This document shows, one piece after another, positions 20,758 through 36,607 of a stretch of DNA of 64,000 bases; the stretch's first letter is position 1; the number at the start of each line of letters is the position of its first letter. The translations under genes were made by a program, and so were the position numbers. Location: the NCBI RefSeq assembly GCF_900117415.1, contig NZ_FPEI01000003.1:310001-374000 (forward strand), read 5' to 3'. The notes below the pieces were generated by a model. That model was not told where the DNA came from. It was given only the letters and a program-made list of their open reading frames with translations, and searched no databases. The DNA comes from Hyphomicrobium sp. CS1BSMeth3 (GTDB lineage: Bacteria; Pseudomonadota; Alphaproteobacteria; Rhizobiales; Hyphomicrobiaceae).

Positions 20758-21996
20758 CTACTCCAGCCGGTTCAACGCGACTTCGAAGGCGTCGAAATTG
20801 CGCAGCGGCACAGGCAAGGGTGTCGAAGCGCGACGATTGGCGATCATCGGCACGCGCTGCTCGGAAAGCCCGCCATGCGAGCGCAGTGGCTCGTCGAGGC
20901 CCGAAAGATCATGCCGCTCAGGTGAGGTGCCGAGCACCTTGTGCTTCTCCGAAAGCACCACGATGTCGCCGATGCGGTCGGGCGGGAGCGCGAACTGCTG
21001 GCAGGCAATGTCCTTGGCGCATGCCATCTCGATACCATCGACGTCCCACAGCCGGCTGAGCAGCTCGGGCACGGGCGTGCCGGACGGAACATGCACGGTC
21101 GCGAAGCCACCGAGCGCGCCGTGGTGAGCGACGTAAGGGTCGGTGATCGGCAGGATCACGCGCGCAACGTCCTTGCCGAGCCACTCATCGAACAGCGTCT
21201 GGAGATAGATGACGTCCGGCGAACCGTCCGGCAAATGCTTGTCGTTCATGCCGTGGTCGGCCGTGGCGAGGACTGTGCAGCCGAGGCGATCGAGGGTCGC
21301 GAGATAGTCGTCGATCATGCCGTAGAAGCTGTTCGCAATGGCCGTGCCCGGGCCAACCTTGTGCTGGATGTAGTCCGTCGTCGAGAGATACATGACATCG
21401 GGGCGGAAGCGCTCGACGAGCTTGACGCCAGAGGCGAACACGAACTCGGAGAGGTCCGCCGAGTAGACCTCCGGCACCGGCTTGCCGACAAGCTCGAGCA
21501 CGCCGTCGATGCCGTTCGCTGCGCGCGTTGCCTGATCGGCGCGCTCCGCGGAAAAGGCGACGGCGCGGCCCGTTGCGTAGTCGAGCCCGTTCGAGAGCAG
21601 CAGGCGCAGCTTGTCCTTGGCCGTCACCATGGCGACCTTCGCGCCTGCATTGTGGAAGGCGGCGAGGACGGTCGGCGCGCGCAGGAAAACGGGATCGTTC
21701 ATCATGACCTCGGCGCCGGCAGCCGGATCATAGAAGAAGTTGCCGCAGATACCGTGCACGGCCGGCGGGCGTCCCGTGATGATGGAAAGATTGTTCGGGT
21801 TGGTGAAGCTCGGGATCACGCTCTCGGCATGCGTGTGCAGGCCTTCGCGCATGAAGCGGGCAAACGTCGGCGCAACGCCCGCTTCGATGGCCGCCTCGAT
21901 GTAACCGGGCTCGGAGCCGTCGAGGCAGATGACGACGGTCGGCCGCTTGGGAAGGCGGTAGCTGCGTCCGTTGCAGGTTACTTCGGCCATGGTCAT
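20758..21996 (-). CDS. phnA: Phosphonoacetate hydrolase-like enzyme (PhnA family)
   Basis: A 412-residue alkaline-phosphatase-superfamily hydrolase resembling phosphonoacetate hydrolase, which cleaves phosphonoacetate to acetate and phosphate using two zinc ions. Visible features are D26 in ICLDGSEP, the nucleophile T65 in SFTNPNNLSIITG, HGICGNFFYD, STTDYIQHK, the second metal site ATADHGMNDKH, and SHGGLSEQRVPM near the end. No other phosphonate genes lie nearby; it ends an operon of CoA-type enzymes, so the natural substrate may differ. A second in-frame ATG at 21990 gives better spacing from the purine-rich box. Confidence 0.82.
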   Translation of the reverse strand: MTMAEVTCNGRSYRLPKRPTVVICLDGSEPGYIEAAIEAGVAPTFARFMREGLHTHAESVIPSFTNPNNLSIITGRPPAVHGICGNFFYDPAAGAEVMMNDPVFLRAPTVLAAFHNAGAKVAMVTAKDKLRLLLSNGLDYATGRAVAFSAERADQATRAANGIDGVLELVGKPVPEVYSADLSEFVFASGVKLVERFRPDVMYLSTTDYIQHKVGPGTAIANSFYGMIDDYLATLDRLGCTVLATADHGMNDKHLPDGSPDVIYLQTLFDEWLGKDVARVILPITDPYVAHHGALGGFATVHVPSGTPVPELLSRLWDVDGIEMACAKDIACQQFALPPDRIGDIVVLSEKHKVLGTSPERHDLSGLDEPLRSHGGLSEQRVPMIANRRASTPLPVPLRNFDAFEVALNRLE

Positions 21997-22007
21997 TCCG
22001 CCCTGGT

Positions 22008-22325
22008 TTACTGCGCCATTCTTGCTCGAAAAGCCGTCTCGAAGCGCTTGAGATTGTAGTTGTTCTTGCCCCAGTCGAAGATGACCGTGCGGAGTGCGCT
22101 GTGGCTCGACGCCTCGACGAGCGTCCGCCCGGCAGCGGCATCGCTCAGACGCACGGTCATGACTTCGCCGATGCTGCGCCAGTTGATCGGCGTGCGCGCT
22201 GTAACGATCAGGCCGTCGCGGCTGAAACGATAGCAGCGCATGTCGCTGAGCGCCTGCACCATGGGCATGAGCAGATCATCGGGCGTGCCCACGACCTCGA
22301 ATGAAATCTGCCGGCTGACCGCCAT
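22008..22325 (-). CDS. Unknown small protein
   Basis: A 105-residue protein between the PhnA-like and ketopantoate-reductase-like genes, 11 and 30 bases from each, hence probably in the same operon. It looks like a small alpha/beta fold: FEVVGTPDDLLMPMVQALSD, then YRFSRDGLIVTARTP, MTVRLSDAAAGRTLVEASSH and an ending IFDWGKNNYNLKRFETAF. The DWGKNNYNLKRF segment suggests a DUF-type envelope or lipid-related domain, but I cannot name it. No signal peptide. Confidence 0.6.
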   Translation of the reverse strand: MAVSRQISFEVVGTPDDLLMPMVQALSDMRCYRFSRDGLIVTARTPINWRSIGEVMTVRLSDAAAGRTLVEASSHSALRTVIFDWGKNNYNLKRFETAFRARMAQ

Positions 22326-22355
22326 CTTGCCCCCAATGCGCTGCCACCGAAGCGG

Positions 22356-23279
22356 TCACTTGAAGCCGGATTCCTTGGCCTTGAGCAGCGCCACGACGAC
22401 CGAATTCACCGGCGTCGCGATGCCGACCTTGGCGCCCTCGCGCGGGATCGCGCCATTGATGTTGTCGACCTCGGCGCGCCGCCCAGCCAGATGATCGAGC
22501 AACATCGACGGCCGCGCACCTGGAATCTTCTGGCCGAACTCGCGCACGTAGCGCACGGGATCATCGAAGTCGAGCGTGATGCCCTTGGCGCGCGCCACCT
22601 GATAGGCCTCGTGCGCGCAGGCCGCCGCAATACTCAAGGCGCTTGGGTTCGACTGCACCTCGCCGACGCGAAGGCCAGTCAGTGCGCATGGCCCGGAGTA
22701 CGTGCAGTTGCAGATGAGCTTCTCCCAGACCATCTTGTGGATGTCGTCGAAGGTCAGGACCTTGAAGCCGCCCTTGCGCCAGGCTTCCGCGACGGTCTCG
22801 AGGCGGGGCGTCATGCCGCCGTCCATCTCGCCCAAACGCAGGAACTCCATGCCATTGTGATGCGCGTGGCCGGGACCTTTCATCGAAGCGCCGAAGCCGC
22901 CGACCACACCGAGCATGATGCGCTTCGAGCCGACCACGTCGGCGACGATATCCGCACTGCCGAGACCATTCTGGATGGCGAGGATCGGTGCATCGGGCTT
23001 GCCGATCTGCAGTGCTGCCTTCGCCGCAGCGCCGACGCCGTCGTACTTCGTCGCGACGATGACGAGATCGGCATCCTTCACGTCGGCAGGGTTGGTCGTG
23101 GCGTTCATGCGCACCGTGCGATCGCCCGACGCGCCTTCGACGCGCAGGCCTTTCTCGCGGATGGCATCGACGTGCTCTTTCCACGTGTCGATGGCCCAGA
23201 CGTCGTGCTTGCCCTGGTCAGCGAGCAGCGCGGCATAGACCGAGCCCATGGCGCCGACGCCGATGATCGCGATTTTCAT
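22356..23279 (-). CDS. Ketopantoate reductase-family protein (PanE/ApbA)
   Basis: A 307-residue NADP-dependent 2-hydroxyacid dehydrogenase of the ketopantoate reductase family. The Rossmann motif GVGAMG lies at 7-12, IQNGLGSADIV is the substrate-loop Asn motif, and WEKLICNCTYSGPCALTGL contains the catalytic lysine. Typical PanE makes pantoate for CoA, but the position inside a catabolic operon with acyl-CoA enzymes suggests reduction of another 2-oxo acid, as many paralogues do. Length is normal for the family. Confidence 0.82.
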   Translation of the reverse strand: MKIAIIGVGAMGSVYAALLADQGKHDVWAIDTWKEHVDAIREKGLRVEGASGDRTVRMNATTNPADVKDADLVIVATKYDGVGAAAKAALQIGKPDAPILAIQNGLGSADIVADVVGSKRIMLGVVGGFGASMKGPGHAHHNGMEFLRLGEMDGGMTPRLETVAEAWRKGGFKVLTFDDIHKMVWEKLICNCTYSGPCALTGLRVGEVQSNPSALSIAAACAHEAYQVARAKGITLDFDDPVRYVREFGQKIPGARPSMLLDHLAGRRAEVDNINGAIPREGAKVGIATPVNSVVVALLKAKESGFK

Positions 23280-23303
23280 GGGTTGCTGTCCGCTTCCTGG
23301 ATG

Positions 23304-24485
23304 TCAGTAGCTGCGCGGCATGCCGAGGACGTTCTGGCCGACGAAGGCGAGAACCATGTTCGTGGAGATCGGCGCTGTCTGATAGAGGCGTGCCTCGCGC
23401 CACTTGCGCTCGATGCCGTACTCGCGGGCATAGCCGAAACCACCGAACGTCTGCAGGCAGGCTTCAGCCGCCTTCCACGCCGCGTCTGCCGCGAGCATCT
23501 TGCCGATGTTGGCTTCTTTGCCGCATTCGAGCCCGGCCTCGAACAGCGTCGTACCGCGGCGAACGACCAGCTCGGCTGCCATCAGCTCGGAATAGGCACG
23601 CGCGATCGGGAACTGCACGCCCTGGTTCTTCCCGATCGGATTGCCGAACACGACGCGCTCGTTGGCGTACTCCGTCGCGCGGCGGATGAAGAACTTCGCA
23701 TCACCCAGGCATTCCGACGAGATCAGCAGGCGCTCGGCGTTCATGCTGGAGAGGATGTAGCGGAAGCCCTTGCCCTCCTCGCCGATGAGCGCATCCGGCG
23801 GCACCTCGAGATTGTCGAAGAACACCTCGCAGGTGTTGTGATTGATCATGGCGTCGATCTTCTTGATCTCGACGCCGCGGCCCTTGGCCTCGCGCAGATC
23901 GACGAGGAAGACGGAAAGGCCGTCCGTGCGCCGCTTGACCTGATCGACGGGCGTCGTGCGCGCGAGCAGCAGCATGAGATCGGAGTGGAGCACGCGGCTC
24001 GTCCAGACCTTCTGGCCGTTCACGACGTACTTGTTGCCACGCTTCTCGGCGCGCGTCTTGAGCTGGGTCGTATCGGAGCCCGTAGTCGGCTCGGTCACGC
24101 CGAAGGCCTGGAGACGCAGCTTGCCCGAGGCGATTTCGGGGAGGTACTTGCGCTTCTGCTCTTCCGAGCCGTGCTTGAGCACGGTGCCCATGGTGTACAT
24201 CTGCGCGTGGCAGGCGGCGGCATTGCAGCCCATCTCGTGGATGGTTTCGAGCACCGCGCAGCCGGCCGAGAGCGGCAGACCCGAGCCGCCGTACTCCTCT
24301 GGAATGAGGCAGCCGAGGTAGCCGCCATCCGTGAGGGCCTGGACGAACTCGGTCGGGTACTCCGACGCGGCATCGAGCTTCATCCAGTATTCGTTCGGGA
24401 ACTGCTCGCAGATGGCGCGGACACCCTCGCGGATCTCCGCCCACTGCGGGTCGATCGGCATCATCAGCTCGTCGGAACTCGTCAT
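23304..24485 (-). CDS. Acyl-CoA dehydrogenase
   Basis: A 393-residue FAD-dependent acyl-CoA dehydrogenase. It has the family motifs AFGVTEPTTGSDTTQLKT, YVVNGQKVWTS, and the C-terminal LQTFGGFGYAREYGIERKWR. At the usual catalytic position (the YEGT motif) it reads LYQTAPIST, with no glutamate. Instead MNAERLLIS carries a glutamate at the place used by isovaleryl-CoA and long-chain enzymes. That suggests a branched or otherwise bulky acyl-CoA. It lies in an operon with an HMG-CoA-lyase-like enzyme (18 bases away) and an enoyl-CoA hydratase. Confidence 0.9.
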   Translation of the reverse strand: MTSSDELMMPIDPQWAEIREGVRAICEQFPNEYWMKLDAASEYPTEFVQALTDGGYLGCLIPEEYGGSGLPLSAGCAVLETIHEMGCNAAACHAQMYTMGTVLKHGSEEQKRKYLPEIASGKLRLQAFGVTEPTTGSDTTQLKTRAEKRGNKYVVNGQKVWTSRVLHSDLMLLLARTTPVDQVKRRTDGLSVFLVDLREAKGRGVEIKKIDAMINHNTCEVFFDNLEVPPDALIGEEGKGFRYILSSMNAERLLISSECLGDAKFFIRRATEYANERVVFGNPIGKNQGVQFPIARAYSELMAAELVVRRGTTLFEAGLECGKEANIGKMLAADAAWKAAEACLQTFGGFGYAREYGIERKWREARLYQTAPISTNMVLAFVGQNVLGMPRSY

Positions 24486-24502
24486 CGATACGTGCTTCCC
24501 TG

Positions 24503-25444: not shown

Positions 25445-25464
25445 GGCGTCTGCCTCCTCAGATC

Positions 25465-26265
25465 TCACTGGCCTTTGTAGACCGGCTTGCGCTTCTCGTT
25501 GAAGGCGTTGATGCCTTCCTGGCGATCCTCGGTGACGACCGTGCGGTTGTAGGCCTCGATCTCGTAGGCATAGCCGTCCGCGCGGCCGAGGTCGCTCGCG
25601 CGGTCCATGGACTTCTTGGCCTGGCGCACGCTGACCGGCGCATTGCTGGCGATCTTGCGCGCGACGGCCAGCACCTCGCTCATGAGCTCGGCACCCGGCA
25701 CGACCTTGTTGACCATGCCCCAGGCAAGGCCGTCGATCGCGGTGAAGGGCGTGCCGGTGAGAATGATCTCCTTGGCCCGGCGCACGCCGACGGCTCGCGG
25801 CAGGTTCTGCGTGCCCATGAGCCCGGGCATGATGCCGAGCGTGACCTCGGTCAGCGCGAAGCGGGCGTGCTCGGCGGCGTAGACGAAATCACAGGCGAGC
25901 GCGATCTCGAGGCCGCCGGCATAGGCATGGCCGTTGACCGCCGCGATGATCGGCACCGGGCAGTCCATCATCGCGCGGCCGATCTGCTCGACAACGGCGT
26001 GCTGCTGGCGCCATATCTCGTCGGTCATGCCCTTGCGCTCTTTGAGGTCCGCGCCCGTGCAGAACCCGCGATCACCGGAACCGGTGATGACAAGGCAGGC
26101 CACCTGATTGGGGTCGATGTAGAACTGCATGAAGCAGTCGCGCAGCTCCCGCATCATCTGCGTGGTCATCGCATTGAGCGCATCGGGGCGGTTCATTGTG
26201 ATGATGCCGACCTTGTCCGGGCCGATCTCCAGCTTGATGGTCTCGTAGGCGGGGTGTGCTGCCAT
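25465..26265 (-). CDS. Enoyl-CoA hydratase/isomerase
   Basis: A 266-residue crotonase-family enzyme. Both acid/base glutamates of true hydratases are present: E120 in YAGGLEIALACDFV and E140 in RFALTEVTLGIMPG. The oxyanion-hole segments are GFCTGADLKE and AAVNGHAYAGG. It starts at the ATG 26263-26265. It is the first enzyme gene of the leftward operon after the GntR-type regulator and probably hydrates the product of the acyl-CoA dehydrogenase encoded two genes on. Confidence 0.9.
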   Translation of the reverse strand: MAAHPAYETIKLEIGPDKVGIITMNRPDALNAMTTQMMRELRDCFMQFYIDPNQVACLVITGSGDRGFCTGADLKERKGMTDEIWRQQHAVVEQIGRAMMDCPVPIIAAVNGHAYAGGLEIALACDFVYAAEHARFALTEVTLGIMPGLMGTQNLPRAVGVRRAKEIILTGTPFTAIDGLAWGMVNKVVPGAELMSEVLAVARKIASNAPVSVRQAKKSMDRASDLGRADGYAYEIEAYNRTVVTEDRQEGINAFNEKRKPVYKGQ

Positions 26266-26283
26266 GCGTCGTCCTATCCGGTC

Positions 26284-26332: not shown

Positions 26333-26416
26333 AGGGGAAATTCATGTGCGCCCGGAATATCGCGCCTCGCCCGCTTTGGCCAGCCGGATGGTGCCGTAGG
26401 GCTATGCACGGAGCCT

Positions 26417-27148
26417 TCAGAGGCGCGCGAAATAGTGGGCGCGGTCCAGATGAGCATGGCTGAGCCGCCATTCGATGCGCCGCCCGCTCAGATCATACGT
26501 AATCCGGTCGATGGCGAGGATAGGAGACCCTGGCTTCACGTCGAGGCGTTCGGCGAGCCGGGCCGTGGCGGCGACGGCGGTTACCTGCTCCTCGGTGCGG
26601 GCCACGTGAATGCGATAGCGCTTCTGGAACAGGTCGTAGAGCGTATTCGGCATCTCGGCCTCCTGCGCCAGCCCCGGAAAGAGAGCCTCCGGCAGGACAA
26701 TGCGATCATCCATGAAGGCGCGGCCACCGCGGGTCCTTATGCGCGAGATGCGGATCACCCTTGCGCCCTCGCCGAGCTCCAAACGCTGCCGCTCGGCCGT
26801 GCTGGCCTCTCCGGTCGTAACCCGCGCCGGCTGGCTGTCGGGGAGGACCTGGGCGCCGCTCTCGTCGTAAATATTGAAGAAACGGAACAGCATGTGCGCG
26901 GGCGTGTGCTCGGCCACGTAGGTGCCGCTGCCCTGCCGGCGCACGACGACCTGCTCGGCGGTAAGTGCATCGAGCGCCTTGCGCACCGTCCCCTGGCTGA
27001 CGCCCAGCTCCCGCGCGAGCTCCATTTCTGCGGGAATGGCGGTCCCGGGGGGCCAGTCCCCGCCCATGATCCGAGCCAGGACGATGGCCTTGACCCGCGC
27101 ATAGAGCGGACCGCCATTCTCTTCCGGCTCCAAACGAGGCTTGCGCAC
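26417..27148 (-). CDS. GntR/HutC-family regulator
   Basis: A 243-residue GntR-type repressor. Residues about 12-80 form the winged helix (PLYARVKAIVLARIMGG, IPAEMELARELGVSQGTVRK, RRQGSGTYVAEH). Residues about 90-240 form the UTRA ligand-binding domain of the HutC subfamily (VIRISRIRTRGGRAFMDDRI and a terminal IEWRLSHAHLDRAHYF). The start is a GTG at 27146-27148. It is the first gene of the leftward unit and faces the sulfolactate-lyase-type operon; a perfect palindrome lies 35 bases upstream, so it likely represses both units and is released by a pathway metabolite. Confidence 0.9.
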   Translation of the reverse strand: MRKPRLEPEENGGPLYARVKAIVLARIMGGDWPPGTAIPAEMELARELGVSQGTVRKALDALTAEQVVVRRQGSGTYVAEHTPAHMLFRFFNIYDESGAQVLPDSQPARVTTGEASTAERQRLELGEGARVIRISRIRTRGGRAFMDDRIVLPEALFPGLAQEAEMPNTLYDLFQKRYRIHVARTEEQVTAVAATARLAERLDVKPGSPILAIDRITYDLSGRRIEWRLSHAHLDRAHYFARL

Positions 27149-27170
27149 GACCCTGATCCCGGCTAGGTCA

Positions 27171-27198
27171 TTGTCACCTGCGAAGTCTTATATAAGAC
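27171..27198 (+). promoter_or_regulatory. Candidate promoter of the rightward catabolic operon
   Basis: TTGTCA at 27171-27176 and TAAGAC at 27193-27198 are separated by 16 bases. The minus 10 box lies within the palindromic operator, so repressor binding would exclude RNA polymerase. Confidence 0.35.
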
Positions 27199-27200
27199 TT
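27183..27200. promoter_or_regulatory. Perfect 18-bp palindrome, GntR/HutC-type operator
   Basis: AAGTCTTATATAAGACTT is its own reverse complement. It contains the GT-N-TATA-N-AC core typical of HutC-subfamily GntR sites. It lies between the regulator gene and the lyase alpha-subunit gene, where it can control both directions. Confidence 0.82.
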
Positions 27201-27261: not shown

Positions 27262-27558
27262 GTGTCCAAATCCAATATTCCCCAGTTCCTGGTCCACAGC
27301 CCCGAGGACAACGTCGGCGTCGTCGTCGTCGAGGACCTCAAGGCCGGGACCAAGATGCTCGGTGTCATCACCGAGAATGACACCACGATCCACGTCACCG
27401 CCAAGCACGACATCCCGATCGGCCACAAGGTGGCGCTGAAGGATCTCAAGGAAGGCGACACGGTCATCAAGTACGGCGAGGACGTCGGCCGCATGATCGG
27501 CAACGCCAAAGAGGGCGAGCACGTGCACGTCCACAATCACAAGACCAAGCGCTGGTAG
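27262..27558 (+). CDS. suyA: Sulfolactate sulfo-lyase alpha-type / UxaA N-terminal (SAF) subunit
   Basis: A 98-residue SAF-domain protein, the small subunit of a two-part lyase of the UxaA/SuyAB family. The sequence FLVHSPEDNVGVVVVEDLKA, then TAKHDIPIGHKVALKDLKEG and the histidine-rich end EGEHVHVHNH are typical. The start is the GTG at 27262, 12 bases after an AGGGAGAAAGG stretch; an ATG at 27214 would add a non-conserved arginine-rich leader. It is 12 bases from the large-subunit gene. In this family separate small and large subunits are characteristic of sulfolactate sulfo-lyase, while altronate dehydratase is usually fused. Confidence 0.75.
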   Translation: MSKSNIPQFLVHSPEDNVGVVVVEDLKAGTKMLGVITENDTTIHVTAKHDIPIGHKVALKDLKEGDTVIKYGEDVGRMIGNAKEGEHVHVHNHKTKRW

Positions 27559-27570: not shown

Positions 27571-28773
27571 ATGGCAACGAAGAAGGGTAAGTCATCGGCC
27601 GGCAGCTCCAACCTCTCGTTCTGGGGCTGGCGCCGCGAGAACGGCCGCGTCGGCGTGCGCAATCACGTCATCATCCTGCCGCTCGACGACCTGTCGAACG
27701 CGGCGTGCGAGGCCGTCGCCAACAACATCAAGGGCACGATGGCGCTCCCGCACCACTACGGGCGCCTGCAGTTCGGCGAGGACCTCGAGCTGCATTTCCG
27801 CACGCTCATCGGCGCGGGCTCGAACCCGAACGTCGCCGCCGTCGTCGTGATCGGTATCGAGGATGGCTGGACGGACCGCGTCGTGAAGGGCATCGCCAAG
27901 ACCGGCAAGCCCGTCGTCGGCTTCGGCATCGAAGGCCACGGCGACATCGCGATCATCGCCAAGGCCTCCTACAAGGCCAAGGAGTTCGTGCAGTGGGCCT
28001 CCGAGCTCAAGCGCGAGGAGTGCGATATCTCCGATCTCTGGGTCTCGACCAAGTGCGGCGAGAGCGACACGACGACCGGCCTCGGCTCGTGCCCGACCGT
28101 CGGCAACATGTACGACAAGCTCATCCCCAAGGGCATCTACGGTGTCTTCGGCGAGACGAGCGAGATCACGGGCGCCGAGCACATCTGCGTCAAGCGCGCG
28201 GCGACACCGGCGATTGGCGAGAAGTGGATGAAGACCTTCAAGGCCTATCAGGACGAGGTCATCGAGGCCAACAAGGTCGATGATCTTTCCGAGAGCCAGC
28301 CGACGAAGGGCAACATCGCGGGCGGTCTTTCCTCGATCGAGGAGAAGGCGCTCGGCAATCTCGAGAAGATCGGCCGCAACTGCACGTTCATCGACGTGCT
28401 GAAGCCGGCGGAGGCGCCGGCCAAGGGTGCCGGCCTCTACTACATGGACACGTCCTCGGCCGCGGCCGAGTGCGTGACGCTCATGGCGGCCGGTGGCTAT
28501 GTCGTGCATACGTTCCCGACGGGCCAGGGCAACATCATCGGCAATCCGATCGTGCCGGTGATCAAGATCTCGGCCAATCCGAAGACGCTGCGCACCATGC
28601 CCGAGCACATCGACGTCGACGTGACCGGCATTCTGCGCCGCGAGATGACGCTCGACACGGCGGGCGATGCGCTGATCGATATGATCGTGCGCACGTCGAA
28701 CGGGCGCCTGACGGCGGCGGAGGCCCTCGGCCATCGCGAGTTCGTCATGACGAAACTCTATCGCAGCGCATAA
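27571..28773 (+). CDS. suyB: Sulfolactate sulfo-lyase beta-type / UxaA-family large subunit
   Basis: A 400-residue UxaA-family large subunit. SuyAB removes sulfite from (R)-sulfolactate giving pyruvate. The N terminus [20 protein letters not shown], then [40 protein letters not shown] and [13 protein letters not shown] resemble SuyB as I remember it more than altronate or galactarate dehydratase. I cannot exclude another member acting on a sugar acid or hydroxy acid. It is followed by a strong terminator hairpin, then by further genes on the same strand. No sulfite exporter or sulfite dehydrogenase lies in this window. Confidence 0.72.
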
Positions 28774-28800
28774 CGTCGCCGGATTTTGCTCTGCACAGTG

Positions 28801-28841
28801 AGCGCTCAACCCGGCCCCGGGTTGAGCGCTTTGCTTTTTTT
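28801..28841 (+). terminator. Strong intrinsic terminator after the lyase genes
   Basis: Perfect 14-base stem AGCGCTCAACCCGG / CCGGGTTGAGCGCT with a two-base gap, then TTGCTTTTTTT. It lies 27 bases after the large-subunit stop codon and 17 bases before the next start codon, and should reduce or end transcription from the upstream promoter. Confidence 0.88.
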
Positions 28842-28857: not shown

Positions 28858-29424
28858 ATGCAGCTCGTCGTCCCATCCATGGACCACCTGCCCTCCTACG
28901 TTGCGGCGCTGGAGACGGGCTGGTCGCCGAACAATGTCCGCAATGTCTCCGGCGAGCAGCTTGCGGCGATCCGGGAAAATCCTGCGGCGTTCATCGCGGG
29001 TCTCAGCATGCAGGGCGGCACGATCACGCTGCCGGATGGCAGAAACGTCCCCAAACTGCCCTTCATTGCGCGCTGGATATGGGACGGCGAGTTCTGCGGC
29101 AGCATCTCACTGCGCTGGCAGGAAGGCACGGACGCGCTCCCCTCACACGTGCTCGGCCACATCGGCTATGCCGTCGTGCCCTGGAAGCGGGGACGCGGCT
29201 ACGCGACCGAGGCGCTCCGGCAGATGCTGATCGACGCGCGATCCCAGGGCCTCGGGCGGCTGGAAATCACGACCGACCCGGACAATCTCGCCTCACAGCG
29301 CGTCATCGGGCGCAATGGCGGGAAATACGTCGATACATTCGTCAACGAACACTTTGGCCCCGAGCCGCACCTTCGCTATGTTGTCGACCTCAGCACACCC
29401 GTAACACGAGAAGAGATCCGATGA
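28858..29424 (+). CDS. GNAT-family N-acetyltransferase
   Basis: A 188-residue GNAT acetyltransferase. The acetyl-CoA-binding motif is VVPWKRGRGYATEALRQML, with IGYAV before it and ITTDPDNLASQRVIGRNGG after it, as in the Rim/Spe-type proteins. It begins at an ATG after a TGGAGG box, just past the terminator of the lyase genes, and its TGA overlaps the ATG of the tartrate-dehydratase-like gene (ATGA). The substrate is unknown; it may acetylate an amine or an intermediate of the pathway. Confidence 0.82.
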   Translation: MQLVVPSMDHLPSYVAALETGWSPNNVRNVSGEQLAAIRENPAAFIAGLSMQGGTITLPDGRNVPKLPFIARWIWDGEFCGSISLRWQEGTDALPSHVLGHIGYAVVPWKRGRGYATEALRQMLIDARSQGLGRLEITTDPDNLASQRVIGRNGGKYVDTFVNEHFGPEPHLRYVVDLSTPVTREEIR

Positions 29425-30593
29425 AGATCACCCGCATTCGCGATGCCGTCGCGAAGATCCACTCGCCCATGCGCAATGCCGTCATCTCCTTCGACAAGAT
29501 GACGATCAGCCTCGTCGCGGTCGAGACGGACGTGATCCGCGAGGGCAAACCGGTCATCGGCTACGGCTTCTGCTCGAATGGCCGCTACGCGCAGTCCGGG
29601 ATCATCCGCGAGCGTCTGGCGCCGCGCATTCTCGAAGCCGATGCGGCCAAGCTGCGCGACGAAGCTGCCGGCACGTTCAATCCGCTGGCCATCTGGACGG
29701 CCATGATGAGCAATGAGAAGCCCGGCGGGCATGGCGATCGCGCCTTCGCGGCCGGCGGCATCGACATGGCCGTGTGGGACGCGACGGCAAAGATCCTCGG
29801 CAAGCCGCTGTGGCAGCTCCTCTCCGAGCGCTGCAACGGCGGCAAGCACGACGAGAGTGTGCTCGTGTACTCCGGCGGCGGCTACTACTACCCCGGCAAG
29901 GAGAAGCAGGGCCTGCAGGACGAGATGCGCCAGTGCCGCGACCTCGGCTACAAGCTCATGAAGATGAAGATCGGCGGCGCGCCGCTCGCCGAGGATATGC
30001 AGCGTATCGAATGGGCACTGGAAATTGCAGGTGACGGACAGAACCTCGCCGTCGATGCCAATGGCCGCTTCGATCTCGACACCGCGCTCGCCTATGCGCG
30101 TGCCATGGAGAAATATAATCTCTGCTGGTTCGAGGAGCCGGTCGATCCGCTCGACTATCAGGCGCACGCCGTGCTCTGCGATGCGACGACCATGCCGATC
30201 GCGACGGGCGAGAATCTCTTCTCCGTGCAGGACTTCCGCAATCTCGTGCGCCACGGCGGCATGCGCACGCACATCGACTGGCTGCAGCCCGATCCCTCGC
30301 TCTGCTACGGCCTGACGGAGACGCTGCGCATTCTCGACATGGCGGAGCGCGCCGGCTGGGCGCGGCGGCGCACGGTCCCGCATGGCGGGCATCAGCTCGG
30401 GCTGAACATGGCCGTGGGTCTCCAGCTCGGCGGGACCGAGAGCTATCCCGGCGTCTTCAAGCCGTATGGCGGCTTTGCCGACGATATTCCTGTCGTGGAC
30501 GGCCACACCAAGCCGCACAGCACGCCAGGCATCGGCATGGAGCTCAAACGCGAGATGTTCTCCGAGATGCGCCGCCTGCTGGAATTCACCTGA
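29421..30593 (+). CDS. tarD: D-tartrate dehydratase-like enzyme (enolase superfamily)
   Basis: A 390-residue mandelate-racemase-group enolase-superfamily enzyme. It resembles D-tartrate dehydratase of Bradyrhizobium, which converts D-tartrate to oxaloacetate: ISFDKMTISLVAVETDV, GYGFCSNGRYAQSGI, NEKPGGHGDRA and SGGGYYYPGK are all of that type. Catalytic residues are the KMK lysines at 181 and 183, metal ligands D212, E238 and E264, and H321 in PHGGHQ. A related 2-hydroxy acid could be the true substrate. It is translationally coupled to the GNAT gene. Confidence 0.85.
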   Translation: MKITRIRDAVAKIHSPMRNAVISFDKMTISLVAVETDVIREGKPVIGYGFCSNGRYAQSGIIRERLAPRILEADAAKLRDEAAGTFNPLAIWTAMMSNEKPGGHGDRAFAAGGIDMAVWDATAKILGKPLWQLLSERCNGGKHDESVLVYSGGGYYYPGKEKQGLQDEMRQCRDLGYKLMKMKIGGAPLAEDMQRIEWALEIAGDGQNLAVDANGRFDLDTALAYARAMEKYNLCWFEEPVDPLDYQAHAVLCDATTMPIATGENLFSVQDFRNLVRHGGMRTHIDWLQPDPSLCYGLTETLRILDMAERAGWARRRTVPHGGHQLGLNMAVGLQLGGTESYPGVFKPYGGFADDIPVVDGHTKPHSTPGIGMELKREMFSEMRRLLEFT

Positions 30594-30610
30594 GATGTAG
30601 GAAGCCCGAC

Positions 30611-30916
30611 ATGGCCCGCTGGGTCGCACTTTTCGAAGATCATCCGCGCGAGATCGGCGATCCGATCCGCAAGAACCATCACCAAGCCCACTTCGACTAT
30701 CTCGCCGAGCACAGCGACCGCATTCTGATCGGTGGCGGCCTCCGCCCCGATCCGGATGAGTGGTATTGCGGCGGCCTGTGGGTCATCGAAGTGGAGAAGC
30801 GCGAGGAAGCCGTCGCGCTCGTCGAGAACGATCCCTACTTCAAGCTCGGTCTCAGAAAGGGCTATCGCCTCATGATCTGGGGCAAGGCTCCGAACTATGG
30901 CCCCGTAACGCTGTAA
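30611..30916 (+). CDS. YciI-like protein
   Basis: A 101-residue YciI-family protein with a ferredoxin-like fold (WVALFEDHPREIGDPIRKNH, ILIGGGLRPDPDEWYCGGLW, AVALVENDPYFKLGL, YRLMIWGKAPNYG). The family includes small enzymes and dimeric muconolactone-isomerase-like proteins; a conserved His-Asp pair is often proposed as catalytic. It lies 17 bases after the tartrate-dehydratase-like gene and eight before the dehydrogenase gene, hence in the operon. A function in the pathway, for example lactone or dehalogenation-type chemistry, is speculative. Confidence 0.8.
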   Translation: MARWVALFEDHPREIGDPIRKNHHQAHFDYLAEHSDRILIGGGLRPDPDEWYCGGLWVIEVEKREEAVALVENDPYFKLGLRKGYRLMIWGKAPNYGPVTL

Positions 30917-30924
30917 GTGAGCCC

Positions 30925-31935
30925 ATGACGAAATCCATCACCGCTGCAGAGCTCGAAGCACTCATTACGCGCGCGCTTCAAGCCTCGAATACGAGTGCGG
31001 CCAATGCCGCCTCGGTTTCGCGCGCGCTCACACAAGCCGAGATCGACGGCCAGAAAGGCCACGGGCTTTCGCGCGTCCCGAGCTACGCCGCGCAGGCGCG
31101 CGCCGGCAAGGTGGATGGGCACGCAACGCCCAAGGTCAAACGCACGCGCGCCGCGACGCTCATGATCGATGTGGCGAACGGCTTTGCCTATCCGGCAATG
31201 GACCTCGCCATTGCCGAGCTGCCGAAAGTCGCAGCGGAGACGGGCATTGCGGCAGCAGGCTTCGTGCGCTCGCATCATTTCGGCGTGGCCGGCCGGCATG
31301 TGGAGCGTCTCGCGGAGAAGGGTCTCATCGCGCTGACGGTCTCGAATACGCCGCAGGCCATGGCGGCATGGGGCGGCAAACGTCCCGTATTCGGTACGAA
31401 CCCGCTGGCCTTCGCAGCACCGCGGCGCGACGCGCCTCCGCTCGTCATCGATATGGCCCTTTCGGAAGTCGCGCGCGGCAAGATCGTCACAGCGGCGCAG
31501 AAGGGCGAGCCCATCCCGCTCGGCTGGGCCGTTGATGCGAACGGACAGCCGACGACCGATGCCAAAGCCGCACTCGCCGGCACGCTCGTGCCCGCTGGAG
31601 GTGCGAAAGGCGCCGCACTCGCGCTGATGGTGGAAACGCTGGCCGTGGCGCTGACGGGCGCGAACTTCGCCTTCGAGGCAAGCTCCTTCCTCGATGCCGA
31701 GGGCCCGCCTCCGGGCGCGGGGCAACTGCTCATCGCGATCGATCCTGCAGGCTTTGCCGGTGCCGATACGTTCGCTGATCGCTTCGCTGTGCTCGCCAGC
31801 CTCATCGAGGATGACGAAGGCGCCCGTCTCCCGGGCTCTCGCCGCCTCGCACTCCGCGAGCAGGTGGCCGCCGGCGTTATCAACGTAGACGCGAAGCTGC
31901 TCGCTGAAGTCGTAGCGCTTGCGGGCGCGAAATAG
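30925..31935 (+). CDS. Ldh2-family 2-hydroxyacid dehydrogenase (malate/sulfolactate type)
   Basis: A 336-residue NAD(P)-dependent dehydrogenase of the MDH/LDH2 family, which oxidises malate, lactate, ureidoglycolate or (R)-sulfolactate (ComC). Motifs: KGHGLSRVPSY with the catalytic His46 and Arg50, SHHFGVAGRHVERLAEKG, GTNPLAFAAP and DMALSEVARGKI. In known sulfolactate pathways a ComC-type enzyme works beside SuyAB; here the lyase genes lie in the same cluster, so oxidation of a sulfolactate- or tartrate-like 2-hydroxy acid is plausible. Confidence 0.85.
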   Translation: MTKSITAAELEALITRALQASNTSAANAASVSRALTQAEIDGQKGHGLSRVPSYAAQARAGKVDGHATPKVKRTRAATLMIDVANGFAYPAMDLAIAELPKVAAETGIAAAGFVRSHHFGVAGRHVERLAEKGLIALTVSNTPQAMAAWGGKRPVFGTNPLAFAAPRRDAPPLVIDMALSEVARGKIVTAAQKGEPIPLGWAVDANGQPTTDAKAALAGTLVPAGGAKGAALALMVETLAVALTGANFAFEASSFLDAEGPPPGAGQLLIAIDPAGFAGADTFADRFAVLASLIEDDEGARLPGSRRLALREQVAAGVINVDAKLLAEVVALAGAK

Positions 31936-31976
31936 GCCTCCCTTCTAGTTCCTCCTACGCCGTACGATTTAAGCGG

Positions 31977-32006
31977 TTGCAGGGTGCTGCCTGTTCGAAC
32001 TAGGCT
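31977..32006 (+). promoter_or_regulatory. Candidate internal promoter before the TRAP genes
   Basis: TTGCAG (31977-31982) and TAGGCT (32001-32006), 18 bases apart, in a 114-base gap between the dehydrogenase and TRAP binding-protein genes. Only the box match supports it. Confidence 0.3.
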
Positions 32007-32049
32007 ACCCTCAACACAAAAAATTGATACCGCACTTGGGAGGAAGAAG

Positions 32050-33093
32050 ATGAGCCTTAAGTACGCTGCCCCGCTTGCCGCGGGTGCGCTCGCTGCGCTT
32101 TTAGGCACGGGCGTCACTGCGCAAACTGTCGATGGCCCAGCGGTCAACTGGAACCTCTCGACCTGGGGCAAGCAGCGCGCCTTTACCGCCGGCATGGAGT
32201 CGGTCGCCAAGCAGCTCGCCGACCGCACGGGCGGCAAGTTCCAGATCAAGATGCATTACGGCGAGGCGCTCTCGCGCGACCGCGAGAACCTCGACGGCAT
32301 CAAGCTCGGCGCCTTCCAGGTGGCGCACTTCTGCAACTTTTATCACCCCGGCAAGAACCCCGCGTGGATGGTCTTCACGCTCCCGTTCCTCGATCTCGGC
32401 GACTGGGAGATCGGGACCAAGGTCCGTATCGCGATGATGAAGCATCCGGCCTTCATCAAGGACATGGATCAGTGGAATGCCATGCCCTACAAGTCCGGCC
32501 TTCTGCCGCAGTACGAGTTCATGGGGAAGGGCAAGCCGCCTGAGACGCTCGAAGGCTGGAAGGGCCAGCGTGTGCGCGCCGGCGGCGGTCTCGGCGATGC
32601 CATGAAGATCCTCGGCGCGGTGCTTTCGACCGTTCCCGCGACGGAAACCTACACCGGCATGGAGCGCGGCACGATCGATGCGGTGTCGCTGCCCTACACC
32701 TACGCGCACGCTTCCTATCAGCTCCACACGATCTCCAACTGGTTCACGAACAACATGTCGCCGGGCACGTCCGAGTGTGCCGCGGTGATCAACAAGGATG
32801 CCTACGCCGCGCTGCCGCCGCAGTACAAGAAGCTGCTCGAGGAAGCGCTGCCGCAGGGCTACAAGGACCAGATCAACGCCTACGTCGAGATCGACAAGAA
32901 GAACCTCCCGATGTTCAAGGCCAAGCTGAAGGAGGTCCTCTATTCGGAAGCCGAGCTGAAGCGCTTCCGTGAGGTTGCCGGTAAGCCCGTGTGGGACAAG
33001 TGGGTGGTCGACAACAAGGACAAGTTCGACGCACAGAACGTGCTCGATACGCTTCTCGCCGAGATCGAGAAGGCGAAGAAGGAAAAGAAGTAG
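32050..33093 (+). CDS. dctP: TRAP transporter solute-binding protein (DctP type)
   Basis: A 347-residue periplasmic binding protein of a TRAP transporter. Signal peptide YAAPLAAGALAALLGTGVTA, then the family course: GGKFQIKMHYGEALSRDREN, LDGIKLGAFQVAHFCNFYHP, and the MERGTIDAVSLPYTYAHA segment with NWFTNNMSP. TRAP binding proteins capture organic acids through an arginine-carboxylate bridge; here the arginine is likely that of GQRVRAGGG. A GGGAGGAAG box precedes the ATG. It is first in the P-Q-M gene order. The ligand is unknown, probably the same 2-hydroxy acid the cluster degrades. Confidence 0.92.
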   Translation: MSLKYAAPLAAGALAALLGTGVTAQTVDGPAVNWNLSTWGKQRAFTAGMESVAKQLADRTGGKFQIKMHYGEALSRDRENLDGIKLGAFQVAHFCNFYHPGKNPAWMVFTLPFLDLGDWEIGTKVRIAMMKHPAFIKDMDQWNAMPYKSGLLPQYEFMGKGKPPETLEGWKGQRVRAGGGLGDAMKILGAVLSTVPATETYTGMERGTIDAVSLPYTYAHASYQLHTISNWFTNNMSPGTSECAAVINKDAYAALPPQYKKLLEEALPQGYKDQINAYVEIDKKNLPMFKAKLKEVLYSEAELKRFREVAGKPVWDKWVVDNKDKFDAQNVLDTLLAEIEKAKKEKK

Positions 33094-33212
33094 CTCTCTG
33101 ATCTCACCGCATGATGGGCCATGGCGGCGCGCCTTTGCGCCGCCACGGCGACCCGATGTGGGGCGCCGTCCATGACCTGCTCGCAAATTCCACTGACCGC
33201 AGGAAGCAATTC

Positions 33213-33869
33213 ATGAAGGGCGCAGAAGTCATGGGGACCGCCCCCGGGGAGGGCGGCGCGCTTGGCGCGATCGATCGCGCCGTCCATCTCGTCGAGCGGG
33301 GCACCGCACTGATATCGGGGTTCGGCATCTTCCTGATGATGATGCTCGGCGTCGCGCAGATCCTCTCGCGCAAGCTGCTCAATCTGCCGATCCTCGGCTA
33401 CATCGACATCGTCGAGATCATGATGACGTTCCTCGTCTTCCTCGGTCTCGCCTACACCGAGCGTCTCGGCGGCCACATCCGCATGGAGATCCTGGTCAAC
33501 TACCTGAAGGGCCGCACGCTCTGGCTCTTCGAGCTGACGGGCGTCATCGTCGGCCTTTTCGTGTGCGCTGTACTGACGAAGTATAGCTGGGATCACGCCA
33601 TGCGCGCCTACACCTCGGGCGACTCGACGATCGACATCCAGCTCCTCTGGTGGCCCTCCAAGATGGTGGTGCCCGCCGCATTAGCGCTTCTCTTCATACG
33701 ACTGCTGGTGAGCCTCTGGGGCTACCTCCGCCTCGTCATCGATCCGACGGCTCAACCGATCGGCGTGCCTGAAATCATCGACGTGGAAGAGCAGGCGCGG
33801 CGCGACGTGGAAGCGGCCGGCGTCCATCTCAACGGGAACGAGGAAGGCAAGGTCGATGGTCCTCGATAA
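33213..33869 (+). CDS. dctQ: TRAP transporter small membrane subunit (DctQ type)
   Basis: A 218-residue membrane protein with four hydrophobic segments (GFGIFLMMMLGVAQILSRKL, VEIMMTFLVFLGLAYTERLG, FELTGVIVGLFVCAVLTKYS, VVPAALALLFIRLLVSLWGY), as in DctQ. I start at the ATG 33213 after an AGGAAG box; the upstream in-frame ATG at 33111 would add a non-conserved leader. It overlaps the large permease gene by 14 bases. Together with it, it forms the membrane part of the sodium- or proton-driven uptake system. Confidence 0.88.
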   Translation: MKGAEVMGTAPGEGGALGAIDRAVHLVERGTALISGFGIFLMMMLGVAQILSRKLLNLPILGYIDIVEIMMTFLVFLGLAYTERLGGHIRMEILVNYLKGRTLWLFELTGVIVGLFVCAVLTKYSWDHAMRAYTSGDSTIDIQLLWWPSKMVVPAALALLFIRLLVSLWGYLRLVIDPTAQPIGVPEIIDVEEQARRDVEAAGVHLNGNEEGKVDGPR

Positions 33870-35163
33870 TTTTACGCTTGGCCTTCTCGGCTGCGTCGCA
33901 CTCCTCGTGCTCGTCGTGGGCGGCGTGAGGGTCTACCTCGCTGCAGCGCTCGTCGGCCTTCTCGGCTGCATCGCGATCATCGGCTGGGGACCGGGCGCGG
34001 GCCTCGTCGGCACGATCCCGCACTCGAAGTCGGTCAACTACACGCTCTCCGTGCTGCCGATGTTCATCCTCATCGGCTATCTCGCCTTCTACGCCGGCAT
34101 GACGCAGTCGCTCTTCGAGGCGGCAAAGGCCTGGATGGGCTGGATGCCCGGTGGACTTGCCATCGCGACGATCTTTGCCGTTGCCGCGTTCTCGGCCGTC
34201 TCGGGCGCATCGACGGCCGCCGCTGCGGTCTTCGCGCGCGTCGCCATTCCCGAGATGCTCAAAGCGAACTACGACAAGCGCCTGGCCGCCGGCGTCGTCG
34301 CTGCGGGCGGCACGCTCGACGCGCTCATCCCGCCATCGGCGATCATGGTCGTCTATGCGATCATCGTCGAGGCTTCGATCGGCAAGCTCCTCATCGCAGG
34401 CTTCATTCCAGGTTTCATCTCGGCCGTCTGCTATGCCGGCATCGTCGTCGTCTGGAGCATCATCAATCCCAAGGTGGGCGCGCCGATACACGGCTACACA
34501 TGGAGCCAGCGCATCACGTCATTGCCCGGCACGCTGCCGGTCATCGGCGTGATCGTGATCATCTTCTCGGCGATGTTCTTCGGATGGGCCACGCCGACGG
34601 AGGCCGGCGCACTTGGCGCCTTCGTCGTGTTCGTGGTCGCGCTCATGAACCGCATGAAGGTCTCCCAGCTCAACGAGGCGCTTCTCGAGACGGCCAAGCT
34701 GACCGTGATGATCTTCGCGATCATCTGGGGCATTCTCATCTTCGTGCGCTTCCTCGGCTTTGCCGGCCTTCCTGAAGCGTTCTCGCAATGGGTAGTGCAC
34801 CTGCCTGTGCCTCCGGTCGTCATCATCATCGGCATGCTCTTGGTCTATCTCATCCTCGGCATGTTCATGGACGCGATCGGCATGATGCTGCTGACGCTGC
34901 CGGTGTTCTATCCGGCCGTGATCGCGCTCGGCTACGACCCCATCTGGTTCGGCATCATCGTCGTGAAGATGGCCGGCGTCTGCCTCGTGACACCGCCGAT
35001 CGGGCTCAACTGCTTCGTGGTCGGCGCCGTCCGCCGCGACATCCCGCTCACGACGGTGTTCCAAGGCGCGCTGCCCTTCGTGATCGCCGACTTCATCGCG
35101 ATCGGCATCTTCATCGCCTTCCCCGAGATCGTCACCTTCCTGCCGGACCTCATGCTCAACTAG
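33856..35163 (+). CDS. dctM: TRAP transporter large permease (DctM type)
   Basis: A 435-residue permease with about 12 membrane segments, the transport channel of the TRAP system. Family motifs include FAVAAFSAVSGASTAAAA, GGTLDALIPPSAIMVVYAII, WATPTEAGALGAF, and LGMFMDAIGMMLLTLPVFYP. The ATG at 33856 has an AGGAAGG box inside the end of the preceding gene. Organic acids are driven in by a sodium or proton gradient after delivery by the binding protein. Confidence 0.94.
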   Translation: MVLDNFTLGLLGCVALLVLVVGGVRVYLAAALVGLLGCIAIIGWGPGAGLVGTIPHSKSVNYTLSVLPMFILIGYLAFYAGMTQSLFEAAKAWMGWMPGGLAIATIFAVAAFSAVSGASTAAAAVFARVAIPEMLKANYDKRLAAGVVAAGGTLDALIPPSAIMVVYAIIVEASIGKLLIAGFIPGFISAVCYAGIVVVWSIINPKVGAPIHGYTWSQRITSLPGTLPVIGVIVIIFSAMFFGWATPTEAGALGAFVVFVVALMNRMKVSQLNEALLETAKLTVMIFAIIWGILIFVRFLGFAGLPEAFSQWVVHLPVPPVVIIIGMLLVYLILGMFMDAIGMMLLTLPVFYPAVIALGYDPIWFGIIVVKMAGVCLVTPPIGLNCFVVGAVRRDIPLTTVFQGALPFVIADFIAIGIFIAFPEIVTFLPDLMLN

Positions 35164-35308
35164 TTTCCCAACGCACCAGGCCCGCGCCGACCGAAACCCA
35201 GTCAACCGCGGCGGAGCATTTACTTCGCTCGACATTCGCCGTTCTGATGGCGGCAAGCCGGCCGGCAGAGGGCTCGGCTCGCGCGGCCGTGCCCGGAGGA
35301 TAGCGACG

Positions 35309-36607
35309 TTGAGCGACGATATGCACGGCCGCCCGGGAGACGGCGATGCGACGCGCTTCTTCCTGGCGATGATCCTCGTCCTCACGTTCGTCATGAACAC
35401 GATCGGGCGCGGCGTGACCGAGACGTTCGCCGTGTTCCTCCTGCCGGTGCAGGAGGGCCTCTCCGTCTCGCGCTCCGAGATCACGCTCACCTACTCGATC
35501 TACATGCTCGCGAATGGCTGCACGGCGCCCTTCGCCGGCCAGCTCATCGACCGCCTCGGCGCGCGCGCAACGTACGGCCTCGGCATCCTCTCGCTCGGCA
35601 TGGGCTATTTCCTCGCGGGCTATGCGACACACATCGTGCACTACTACATCTGTGTCGGCCTGCTCGGCGGCATCGGCGCGGCCTCTCTCGGCATGGTCGC
35701 GGCCTCGAGCCTGCTGAGCCGCTGGTTCGTCAACCGCATCGGCTCGGTGATGTCGCTCCCCTATGCGGCCGTCGGCGCAGGCATGATCGCGATCCCGCCG
35801 CTCGCCCAGCTCCTCATCGGGTGGTACGGCTGGCGCGTAAGCCACCAGTTGATCGGCGCGGGCGTGCTCGCACTCTTCCCCTTCGTCATCATGCTGCCGC
35901 TCGGCCGCATCACGGCCGGCTCGCCCGCCTGGCAGGAGCGGCGCCGCGCCCAGTCGGGAACCGCAAACCGCAATCCCTGGCCGGTCTCGGTTGCCATGCG
36001 CACGGGCGCCTTCTGGGGCCTCTTCGCGGCCTACCTGTTCACCTCGCTCGCGGCCTATGCCGTGCTGCCGCAGTCCGTCGCGGCGCTCATCGAGAGCGGA
36101 TTTGCGCCACTGCTCGCCGCCGGCGCCTTCGGCATGATGGGTCTGCTGTCCAGTCTCGGCATTCTCGCCATCGGCTGGATGTCCGACCGCTTCGGCCGCC
36201 TCATCACGGTTACGCTGTCCTACGTCATCACGATCGTCGGCGTCCTTGCGCTGATCGCTACCGTGCACGCGCCCTCGCTGTTCCTGATGTACGCCTTCGT
36301 CGTCTGCTTCGGTCTCATGCAGGGCGCCCGCGGGCCGATCCTCGTCGCGCTCGTCTCGGTGCTCTATCCGGGCGGCGGCGTCGGCAGCATCTTCGGCGCA
36401 CTCTCGCTCGGCCTTGGCATAGGGGCGGCCCTGGGATCCTGGGCGTCGGGCCTCCTGCACGAGCTGTTCGGCGGCTATACGGCCTCCTTCGGCCTCGCCG
36501 TGCTGAGCTCGATGGCCGGAGCGCTGGTTTTTCTTCTGGTGCCGAGCCTGCGCCTCGAGCGGCTGATGTCGGCGCCGAGCCCTGCCCGGTCCCGCGACGG
36601 CGGGTGA
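35309..36607 (+). CDS. MFS permease (monocarboxylate/oxalate-formate-like)
   Basis: A 432-residue major facilitator with 12 membrane segments. The first half has TRFFLAMILVLTFVMNTIGR and GQLIDRLGARATYGLG (motif A type); the second repeats it as GWMSDRFGRLIT. The general look is of the monocarboxylate/oxalate-formate antiporter branch. I choose the TTG at 35309, eight bases after GGAGGA; an ATG at 35321 has no box at the right distance. It follows the TRAP genes after 145 bases on the same strand and may be a second transporter, importer or exporter of a product, for the cluster. Confidence 0.85.
   Translation: MSDDMHGRPGDGDATRFFLAMILVLTFVMNTIGRGVTETFAVFLLPVQEGLSVSRSEITLTYSIYMLANGCTAPFAGQLIDRLGARATYGLGILSLGMGYFLAGYATHIVHYYICVGLLGGIGAASLGMVAASSLLSRWFVNRIGSVMSLPYAAVGAGMIAIPPLAQLLIGWYGWRVSHQLIGAGVLALFPFVIMLPLGRITAGSPAWQERRRAQSGTANRNPWPVSVAMRTGAFWGLFAAYLFTSLAAYAVLPQSVAALIESGFAPLLAAGAFGMMGLLSSLGILAIGWMSDRFGRLITVTLSYVITIVGVLALIATVHAPSLFLMYAFVVCFGLMQGARGPILVALVSVLYPGGGVGSIFGALSLGLGIGAALGSWASGLLHELFGGYTASFGLAVLSSMAGALVFLLVPSLRLERLMSAPSPARSRDGG

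Follow-up and report, generated by a model that had tools for sequence, protein, structure and literature searches.

The window analysed here, 64,000 nucleotides of Hyphomicrobium sp. CS1BSMeth3 (contig NZ_FPEI01000003.1, positions 310,001 to 374,000), carries at positions 20758 to 36607 a catabolic locus arranged around a GntR/HutC-type regulator gene. We read this locus as two modules that meet at the regulator: a right-hand sulfolactate module built on the lyase SuyAB, and a left-hand acyl-CoA module (probability about 0.72). It is ordinary in its SuyAB core, unusual in its left partner and new in one respect, a branch of enolase-superfamily enzymes linked to SuyAB. An earlier note on this DNA had proposed instead a single pathway that takes up one 2-hydroxy acid and degrades it through CoA intermediates; that proposal fits neither the chemistry of SuyAB, which is CoA-free, nor the conservation of the two halves, which are kept apart from one another elsewhere.

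The genes that the earlier note named are all present. Their coding status is backed by family matches and by conservation in congeners, and third-position guanine-plus-cytosine content agrees for most of them (for the TarD-like and Ldh2 genes the frames measured included upstream extensions). The regulator and the main genes to its right are as follows.

26417-27148, minus strand: GntR/HutC-family regulator, divergent from suyAB; NCBIfam HutC-type matches below curated cutoffs; homologs 5' of suyA in many loci
27183-27200, no strand: predicted palindromic operator of the GntR regulator, AAGTCTTATATAAGACTT; an exact palindrome that recurs 5' of suyA in related loci
27262-27558, plus strand: SuyA small subunit, 98 amino acids (aa); tblastn matches beside SuyB in related loci, and a small UxaA-family gene in annotated loci
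27571-28773, plus strand: SuyB, probable (R)-sulfolactate sulfo-lyase large subunit, 400 aa; GD_AH domains, identity to sulfolactate-cluster SuyB, cysteine pattern
29421-30593, plus strand: TarD-like enolase-superfamily enzyme, SuyAB-linked; MR_MLE domains; best solved relatives 4kem and 2dw7
about 30910-31935 (start approximate), plus strand: Ldh2-family dehydrogenase, ComC type; PF02615
31984-35163, plus strand: TRAP transporter DctP/Q/M; PF03480, PF04290, PF06808
35309-36607, plus strand: MFS transporter; PF07690

The right half is most likely a GntR-controlled sulfolactate module of known kind. We assign SuyAB as a probable sulfolactate lyase because homology, cluster context and cysteine pattern point that way, and the “SuyAB/UxaA-type lyase” of the earlier note is thereby borne out by its cluster relatives and its cysteines. 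In the literature, SuyAB is an Fe-dependent lyase and SlcC and ComC interconvert the sulfolactate enantiomers (PMC12421959, PMC11382572); SuyAB is (R)-specific (PMC12890257) and its reaction yields pyruvate and sulfite, with CoA not involved (PMC11382572). In the window the small and large subunits of this UxaA-superfamily enzyme are encoded by separate, adjacent genes, and SuyB is 81.5% and 75.8% identical, over the alignment, to the SuyB of two sulfolactate clusters. Two annotated plasmid clusters hold the tblastn matches of 84% and 77%: one in Methylobacterium oryzae (with TauE/SafE, a putative sulfate exporter, a molybdopterin oxidoreductase, Ldh and an NAD(P)-dependent oxidoreductase grouping with the 2-hydroxyacid dehydrogenases) and one in Paracoccus seriniphilus (with a hydroxyacid dehydrogenase, Ldh, a TTT transporter, a putative sulfate exporter and, in addition, a histidinol-dehydrogenase gene such as PMC11382572 names HpsN).

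The cysteines point in the same direction. Four of them are described in PMC6336799 as conserved throughout the superfamily except in sulfolactate sulfo-lyase, and we infer that our alignment columns correspond to these. All four are kept in 4/4 UxaA/GarD proteins; three are absent from the window SuyB, the fourth being kept, and the ten SuyB rows most similar to it lack the three as well. Among distant UxaA-family rows, one Haladaptatus protein (Haladaptatus 1) lacks the three, and Haladaptatus 2 and Selenomonas keep all four. On cysteine pattern and genomic contexts we reject the reading of SuyB as an altronate or galactarate dehydratase.

Related loci come from a SuyB scan in which each species was represented by one genome; it found 203 relatives, and the best 80 loci (79-97% identity, mostly Hyphomicrobiales by title) were retained. 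A census of these and the two plasmids (82 loci, or 70 after removal of 12 whose downstream flank was shorter than 5 kb) found SlcC and ComC homologs in 51/70 and a sulfite export or oxidation marker in 44/70, as called at identity thresholds of 35-50% that we chose ourselves. Set beside the sulfolactate clusters of Chromohalobacter salexigens, Paracoccus pantotrophus and P. wurundjeri, as given in PMC12421959, the locus shares SuyAB and a ComC-type Ldh2 but has no adjacent SlcC or sulfite exporter, and it has TRAP plus MFS transporters and extra GNAT, TarD-like and YCII genes.

Two observations on SuyAB relatives may be recorded here. Nine of the 82 loci (L015, L016, L017, L028, L030, L040, L070, L073, L104) carry succinate-dehydrogenase-flavoprotein-like and/or fumarase-like genes near suyAB, which by analogy with the conversion of succinate to malate suggests a route from 3-sulfopropanoate via sulfoacrylate to sulfolactate. 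A Haladaptatus plasmid (L264, 3992-9143) has three UxaA-family genes, an aldehyde dehydrogenase gene and a gene for an enolase C-terminal-domain protein in a row.

The perfect palindrome that the earlier note saw next to the regulator gene holds up well: it is exact, unique in the window, and had no match with up to three mismatches in 100 shuffles. Its 14-base core, GTCTTATATAAGAC, was sought within about 355 bp 5' of suyA in those related loci, 78 in number, whose upstream sequence spans 200 bp or more. It is exact in 32/78, with one mismatch in 18/78, two in 12/78 and three or more in 16/78; thus 50/78 loci carry a core with at most one mismatch, against a background of three such sites in 1,415,989 bases elsewhere in the same loci. 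The GntR gene is likewise divergent from suyAB in many Hyphomicrobiales loci. Judged by this recurrence, the predicted operator is real, though not universal. One further operator site with one mismatch lies in the same genome (G000:C3:1265141-1265158, L202), together with two more core sites with two mismatches, against one in the reversed control. Downstream of the copy at G000:C3:1265141 stand the gene of an enoyl-CoA hydratase and an operon of sarcosine-oxidase type that includes a lactate permease; nothing was found to connect this copy and its neighbour genes with sulfonates.

To the left of the regulator lie six genes on the strand of gntR.

25465-26265, minus strand: enoyl-CoA hydratase (ECH), first gene of the left operon; PF00378
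24503-25468, minus strand: HMG-CoA-lyase-subfamily enzyme (HMGL); NF004283, 275.1 bits against a cutoff of 246
23304-24485, minus strand: acyl-CoA dehydrogenase (ACAD); PF00441, PF02770, PF02771
22356-23279, minus strand: ketopantoate-reductase-family enzyme (KPR); TIGR00745, 238 bits against a cutoff of 141
22008-22325, minus strand: open reading frame (ORF) of 105 aa in the left operon; same-place ORFs of 104 and 111 aa in L153 and L154
20758-21996, minus strand: PhnA, phosphonoacetate hydrolase; TIGR02335, 514.2 bits against a cutoff of 407.55; best solved relative 3szy

The six form a tight run (gaps of 11-30 bp, one overlap of 4 bp), and ECH starts 151 bp past the gntR stop. An apparent gap of 359 bp that would have made PhnA a separate unit is filled by the 105-aa ORF, which rules that arrangement out; the L153 copy of this ORF has no Pfam match. 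This compactness is one argument for the single pathway of the earlier note, which we take to mean that both halves break down the same compound (a phosphonate or sulfonate acyl chain, say) by an HMG-CoA-lyase-type cleavage, with PhnA finishing a C-P product. The run begins close to gntR, its genes are kept across the genus as far as contigs reach, and in genome G324 ECH-HMGL-ACAD is followed by a TarD-type gene belonging to a third subgroup, a hint of a link. The tight left operon argues, against two wholly separate modules, for some shared role of the halves, and since the left genes lie just past gntR on the same strand, with their order kept in congener loci as far as the contigs extend, control of both halves may possibly be shared.

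Outside the genus, however, the two halves were not found together. ECH and HMGL occur beside SuyB in 4/80 loci, namely L005-L008 of the congeners G001-G004; KPR and PhnA are seen in two of these, since contig ends truncate L007 and L008. Beyond these four, the 80 loci have no left-gene matches except ACAD at 26% in L028 and L030. Fifteen of the 80 are poorly able to show left genes, and among the 65 with at least 4 kb upstream, ECH and HMGL are found only in congeners. Conversely, a search of 60 relatives with HMGL gave matches in 29, and ECH, HMGL and ACAD stand together in six of the eight best-scoring loci outside the genus (L186-L191), none of which shows SuyAB. A CaiB-family CoA-transferase adjoins ECH-HMGL-ACAD in five of these six, and L192 and L193 have HMGL with CaiB; the other genes nearby differ from locus to locus (in L187 a PEP-mutase/ICL family gene and an SDR gene, in L189 MmgE/PrpD and AMP-binding genes). 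The CaiB-ECH-HMGL-ACAD loci of other Hyphomicrobiales (L187-L191) have the same three genes in the same order as the window, which differs in lacking CaiB and adding KPR, the 105-aa ORF and PhnA. Neither a CoA ligase nor a transferase was found among the six genes of the left operon, a further point against one shared pathway; nor, although HMGL passes its subfamily model, was a biotin carboxylase gene that would give it the leucine-pathway context of HMG-CoA lyase. The gene set that the earlier note proposed to look for in other Hyphomicrobiales is therefore met as separately conserved halves, an outcome which that note had itself taken to speak against one pathway.

PhnA tells a similar story. 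The window protein scores above its equivalog cutoff, as canonical PhnA (PDB 3szy) would, but its gene sits inside an acyl-CoA operon without phnW/phnY or psrA. In the loci fetched from relatives, PhnA accompanies PhnW or PsrA in 5/8 (four of these also with PhnY), which again counts against the single pathway; L150-L152, the other three, either show a different arrangement or are unreadable. Plasmids of S. meliloti and Ensifer show PhnA with the same canonical neighbours. A relative of KPR (81%) occurs in G018 (L146, 14254-15174) about 4 kb from an aminoethylphosphonate locus (PhnW, PhnA, PhnY) with Na/Pi and EamA transporters. Taken together, the left half resembles a short acyl-CoA module that has gained further genes and, in this genus, a place beside the regulator, and we consider the single pathway improbable.

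The new element of the locus, as judged from alignment and phylogeny, is the enolase. In a search of 297 genomes of the order, the limits set gave TarD-like matches in 67 genomes and SuyB matches in 70. Comparison of the two position tables placed 9/68 TarD-like matches (the window's own included) within 5 kb of suyB, a set that coincides with the nine top-scoring ones; many of the 297 assemblies are drafts, in which linkage is invisible when the genes fall on different contigs. We built a tree from 49 enolase rows (48 of them different) with an aligned span of at least 330 residues (which leaves out L008, among others): 23 linked to SuyAB and 26 unlinked, the latter including PDB 2dw7 and 4kem and representing the better-scoring part of the unlinked matches (the 30 best TarD-like loci fetched, plus three plasmid loci). 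Linked and unlinked enzymes fall on opposite sides of one branch with support of 100/100.

The two sides also differ at particular residues (2dw7 numbering). N53, A153 and C293 are present in 26/26 unlinked and 0/23 linked rows; in the linked enolases N53 becomes C, T or S, A153 becomes G and C293 becomes P. K182, K184, D213, E239, E265, D292 and H322 (the KxK motif, Mg ligands and D-H dyad, the catalytic residues of 2dw7) are invariant in 49/49 rows, as are N55 and K102, which we take to be substrate contacts in D-tartrate dehydratase. C293 adjoins the dyad aspartate, so that the changes exclusive to the linked branch flank the active site. The window enolase is thus of the same family and length as 2dw7 (Bll6730; also 1tzz), the D-tartrate dehydratase TarD, and keeps all catalytic residues, but it lies on a separate, suyAB-linked branch with three residues replaced. 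On the branch split and the exclusive changes we reject a plain TarD, and the tartrate-dehydratase type given in the earlier note is not supported. In the portions of the sulfolactate and suyAB literature available to us we found no mention of this branch.

Two other enolase genes were met along the way. In G324 (L188, 10376-11530), the third-subgroup TarD-type gene lies directly 3' of ECH-HMGL-ACAD and has S53, T55, G153 and C293 (TarD numbering). In the genome studied here, L144 (9733-16472; G000:C2, about 2203700-2210500) holds a second SuyB (60%) followed by another enolase-superfamily gene (28% to the TarD-like enzyme), along with genes for an FAD oxidoreductase, an ABC transporter and a CaiB CoA-transferase and, upstream on the opposite strand, a LysR gene; no suyA was detectable beside this SuyB. 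No relative closer than 65% was found in other genomes of a class sample of 289 genomes, and an enolase of the L144 type was seen in 0/24 loci fetched from that sample, within flanks of about 1.5 kb. We therefore rejected L144 as a recurrence of the SuyB-enolase pairing; it stays a single case.

What might this enolase do? PMC12421959 credits racemisation of sulfolactate to two dehydrogenases, SlcC and ComC. This pair is not seen complete in the genome studied here, where the ComC type is present and an SlcC ortholog, judged by identity, is unseen; the known need at this step is conversion of (S)- to (R)-sulfolactate. A search with the L010 SlcC revealed no ortholog in this genome (best match 40%) or in G002, G004 and G325-G328 (the genomes of L013, L014, L018 and L009), with best matches of at most 43%; orthologs are present in the genomes of L012 (75%) and L070 (51%). 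ComC homologs, by comparison, occur at 60-69% in all seven genomes without a visible SlcC and at 57% or more in all ten TarD-positive genomes examined. The absence of SlcC would be accounted for by a racemase, and the two bases of the TarD-like enolase are also those of mandelate racemase. Our tentative suggestion is that the enolase works at the alpha carbon of sulfolactate, racemisation being its likeliest activity; widened to any single redox-free enzyme that arose next to D-tartrate dehydratase and is able to replace SlcC, either such a racemase or an (S)-sulfolactate sulfite lyase, the idea gains a little, to perhaps one chance in three.

Several observations weigh against this suggestion. 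The SlcC proteins of L010 and L105 are themselves only 48% alike, so the matches of about 40% are not excluded by identity; in the SlcC-bearing genomes of L010 and L012 there is, besides SlcC, a 41-42% protein whose open frame is similarly long, which suggests that such matches may be another paralog. SlcC and ComC occur together in 5/13 TarD-positive loci, and the short-flank locus L071, outside the census, has the enolase plus both; beside these a racemase would be redundant. In L018 the enolase is adjoined by another gene of the 2-hydroxyacid-dehydrogenase family (32% to SlcC). SlcC is present in 5/13 TarD-positive loci and 46/57 others (Fisher p = 0.004, with kinship ignored), but on the SuyB tree only 4-5 independent pairs remain, with SlcC going with TarD in 0.4 and against it in 0.0; as a statistical result, replacement of SlcC by the enolase is unproven, the independent pairs being too few after tree correction. 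Export or oxidation markers, finally, are found in 0/13 TarD-positive and 44/57 other loci. This could reflect a different substrate, although the difference is not significant on the SuyB tree (1.6 of 4 pairs). In this tree, the product of a quick search, the TarD-positive loci stand in several places, with the marker-positive L074 and L105 among them near the base, and SuyB therefore probably does the same job with or without the enolase.

The co-occurrence with SlcC and ComC in 5/13 loci fits a role other than racemase, such as dehydration of a sugar acid, tartrate-like or sulfonated, either as a feeder of the pathway or in parallel to it. The closest solved relative of known role is the D-tartrate dehydratase Bll6730, and the presumed substrate contacts N55 and K102 are kept in 49/49 rows; yet the branch is separate from TarD, its exclusive changes lie beside the dyad aspartate and at N53, and no aldolase is seen among the genes of this locus. 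We hold a dehydratase to be as tentative a possibility as the racemase. The lyase half of the wider idea appears unlikely: the enolase would here be an additional, Mg-dependent desulfonating enzyme, removing sulfite from (S)-sulfolactate and so complementing the (R)-specific SuyAB. In its favour, reactions of the enolase superfamily include abstraction of an alpha proton with subsequent beta elimination, the catalytic residues are all conserved, and L013, L014 and L018 have SuyAB and the enolase without an adjacent SlcC or ComC above thresholds. Against this, ComC homologs lie elsewhere in the genomes of all three, L018 has its distant dehydrogenase-family gene beside the enolase, and we know of no sulfite lyase in the superfamily, though no search aimed at one was made.

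The other genes of the right half are consistent with a sulfolactate module. Ldh2 has L-sulfolactate dehydrogenase as its best NCBIfam match (205 bits, under the cutoff of 500) and is 69% identical to the ComC homolog of L010, so that the ComC likeness claimed in the earlier note can be kept. The TRAP uptake genes that it listed are likewise present, although DctP has weak solved relatives (best 68 bits). In the congener locus L005 (13381-14492) there are no TRAP genes and the MFS gene follows Ldh2 directly; TRAP uptake is therefore dispensable there. The supposition that missing parts lie elsewhere has candidates: a gene of the PF03601 sulfite-exporter family outside the locus (G000:C2:1292576), from a search that matched in 2/9 genomes and whose control was detected in 6/14 known genomes, and sulfite-oxidase-family proteins, found in 9/9 genomes with best matches of 36-38% identity (37% in this one). 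Either the PF03601 protein or the sulfite-oxidase-family proteins, candidates not tied to this locus, could export or oxidise sulfite.

Apart from the 105-aa ORF, three features of the locus had been overlooked in the earlier note.

28800-28831, plus strand: T-tailed hairpin separating suyB from the GNAT gene; 14-pair stem; possible partial terminator or processing signal
about 28858-29424, plus strand: GNAT-family acetyltransferase; PF13302, 2e-13; homologs directly 3' of suyB in other loci
about 30611-30916, plus strand: YCII-domain protein; PF03795, 2e-10

The YCII gene is present in 3/4 congener loci and in none of the others of the 80 SuyB loci. The hairpin has the longest stem among nine terminator-like sites in a scan whose total is not above chance (7.6 in shuffles, standard deviation 2.7); it recurs at the same place 3' of suyB in the congener loci L005-L008, with stem bases changed and shorter T runs, and could possibly give suyAB higher expression than the genes downstream.

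Under the two-module reading, a GntR repressor would sit on the palindrome and be released by sulfolactate or a close relative, and TRAP and/or MFS transporters would import the substrate. SuyAB, an iron enzyme by homology, context and cysteine pattern, would cleave (R)-sulfolactate to pyruvate and sulfite, the ComC-type Ldh2 would interconvert (R)-sulfolactate and sulfopyruvate, and sulfite would be exported or oxidised through genes elsewhere in the genome. The enolase may abstract the alpha proton of sulfolactate, turning (S) into (R) in its most likely (still doubtful) form and making SlcC dispensable; (S)-specific elimination of sulfite or dehydration of a related acid would be the alternatives. 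The left module of ECH, HMGL and ACAD, extended by KPR, the small protein and PhnA, could serve a different substrate.

Sulfolactate arises in the breakdown of sulfoquinovose (PMC12890257). The conserved enolase branch beside suyAB is a concrete candidate enzyme for a simpler route into sulfolactate cleavage, and its members call for caution against annotation as D-tartrate dehydratase. If the suggested role is true, enolase-superfamily C-S chemistry or sulfonate racemisation would, to our knowledge, be new to the superfamily.

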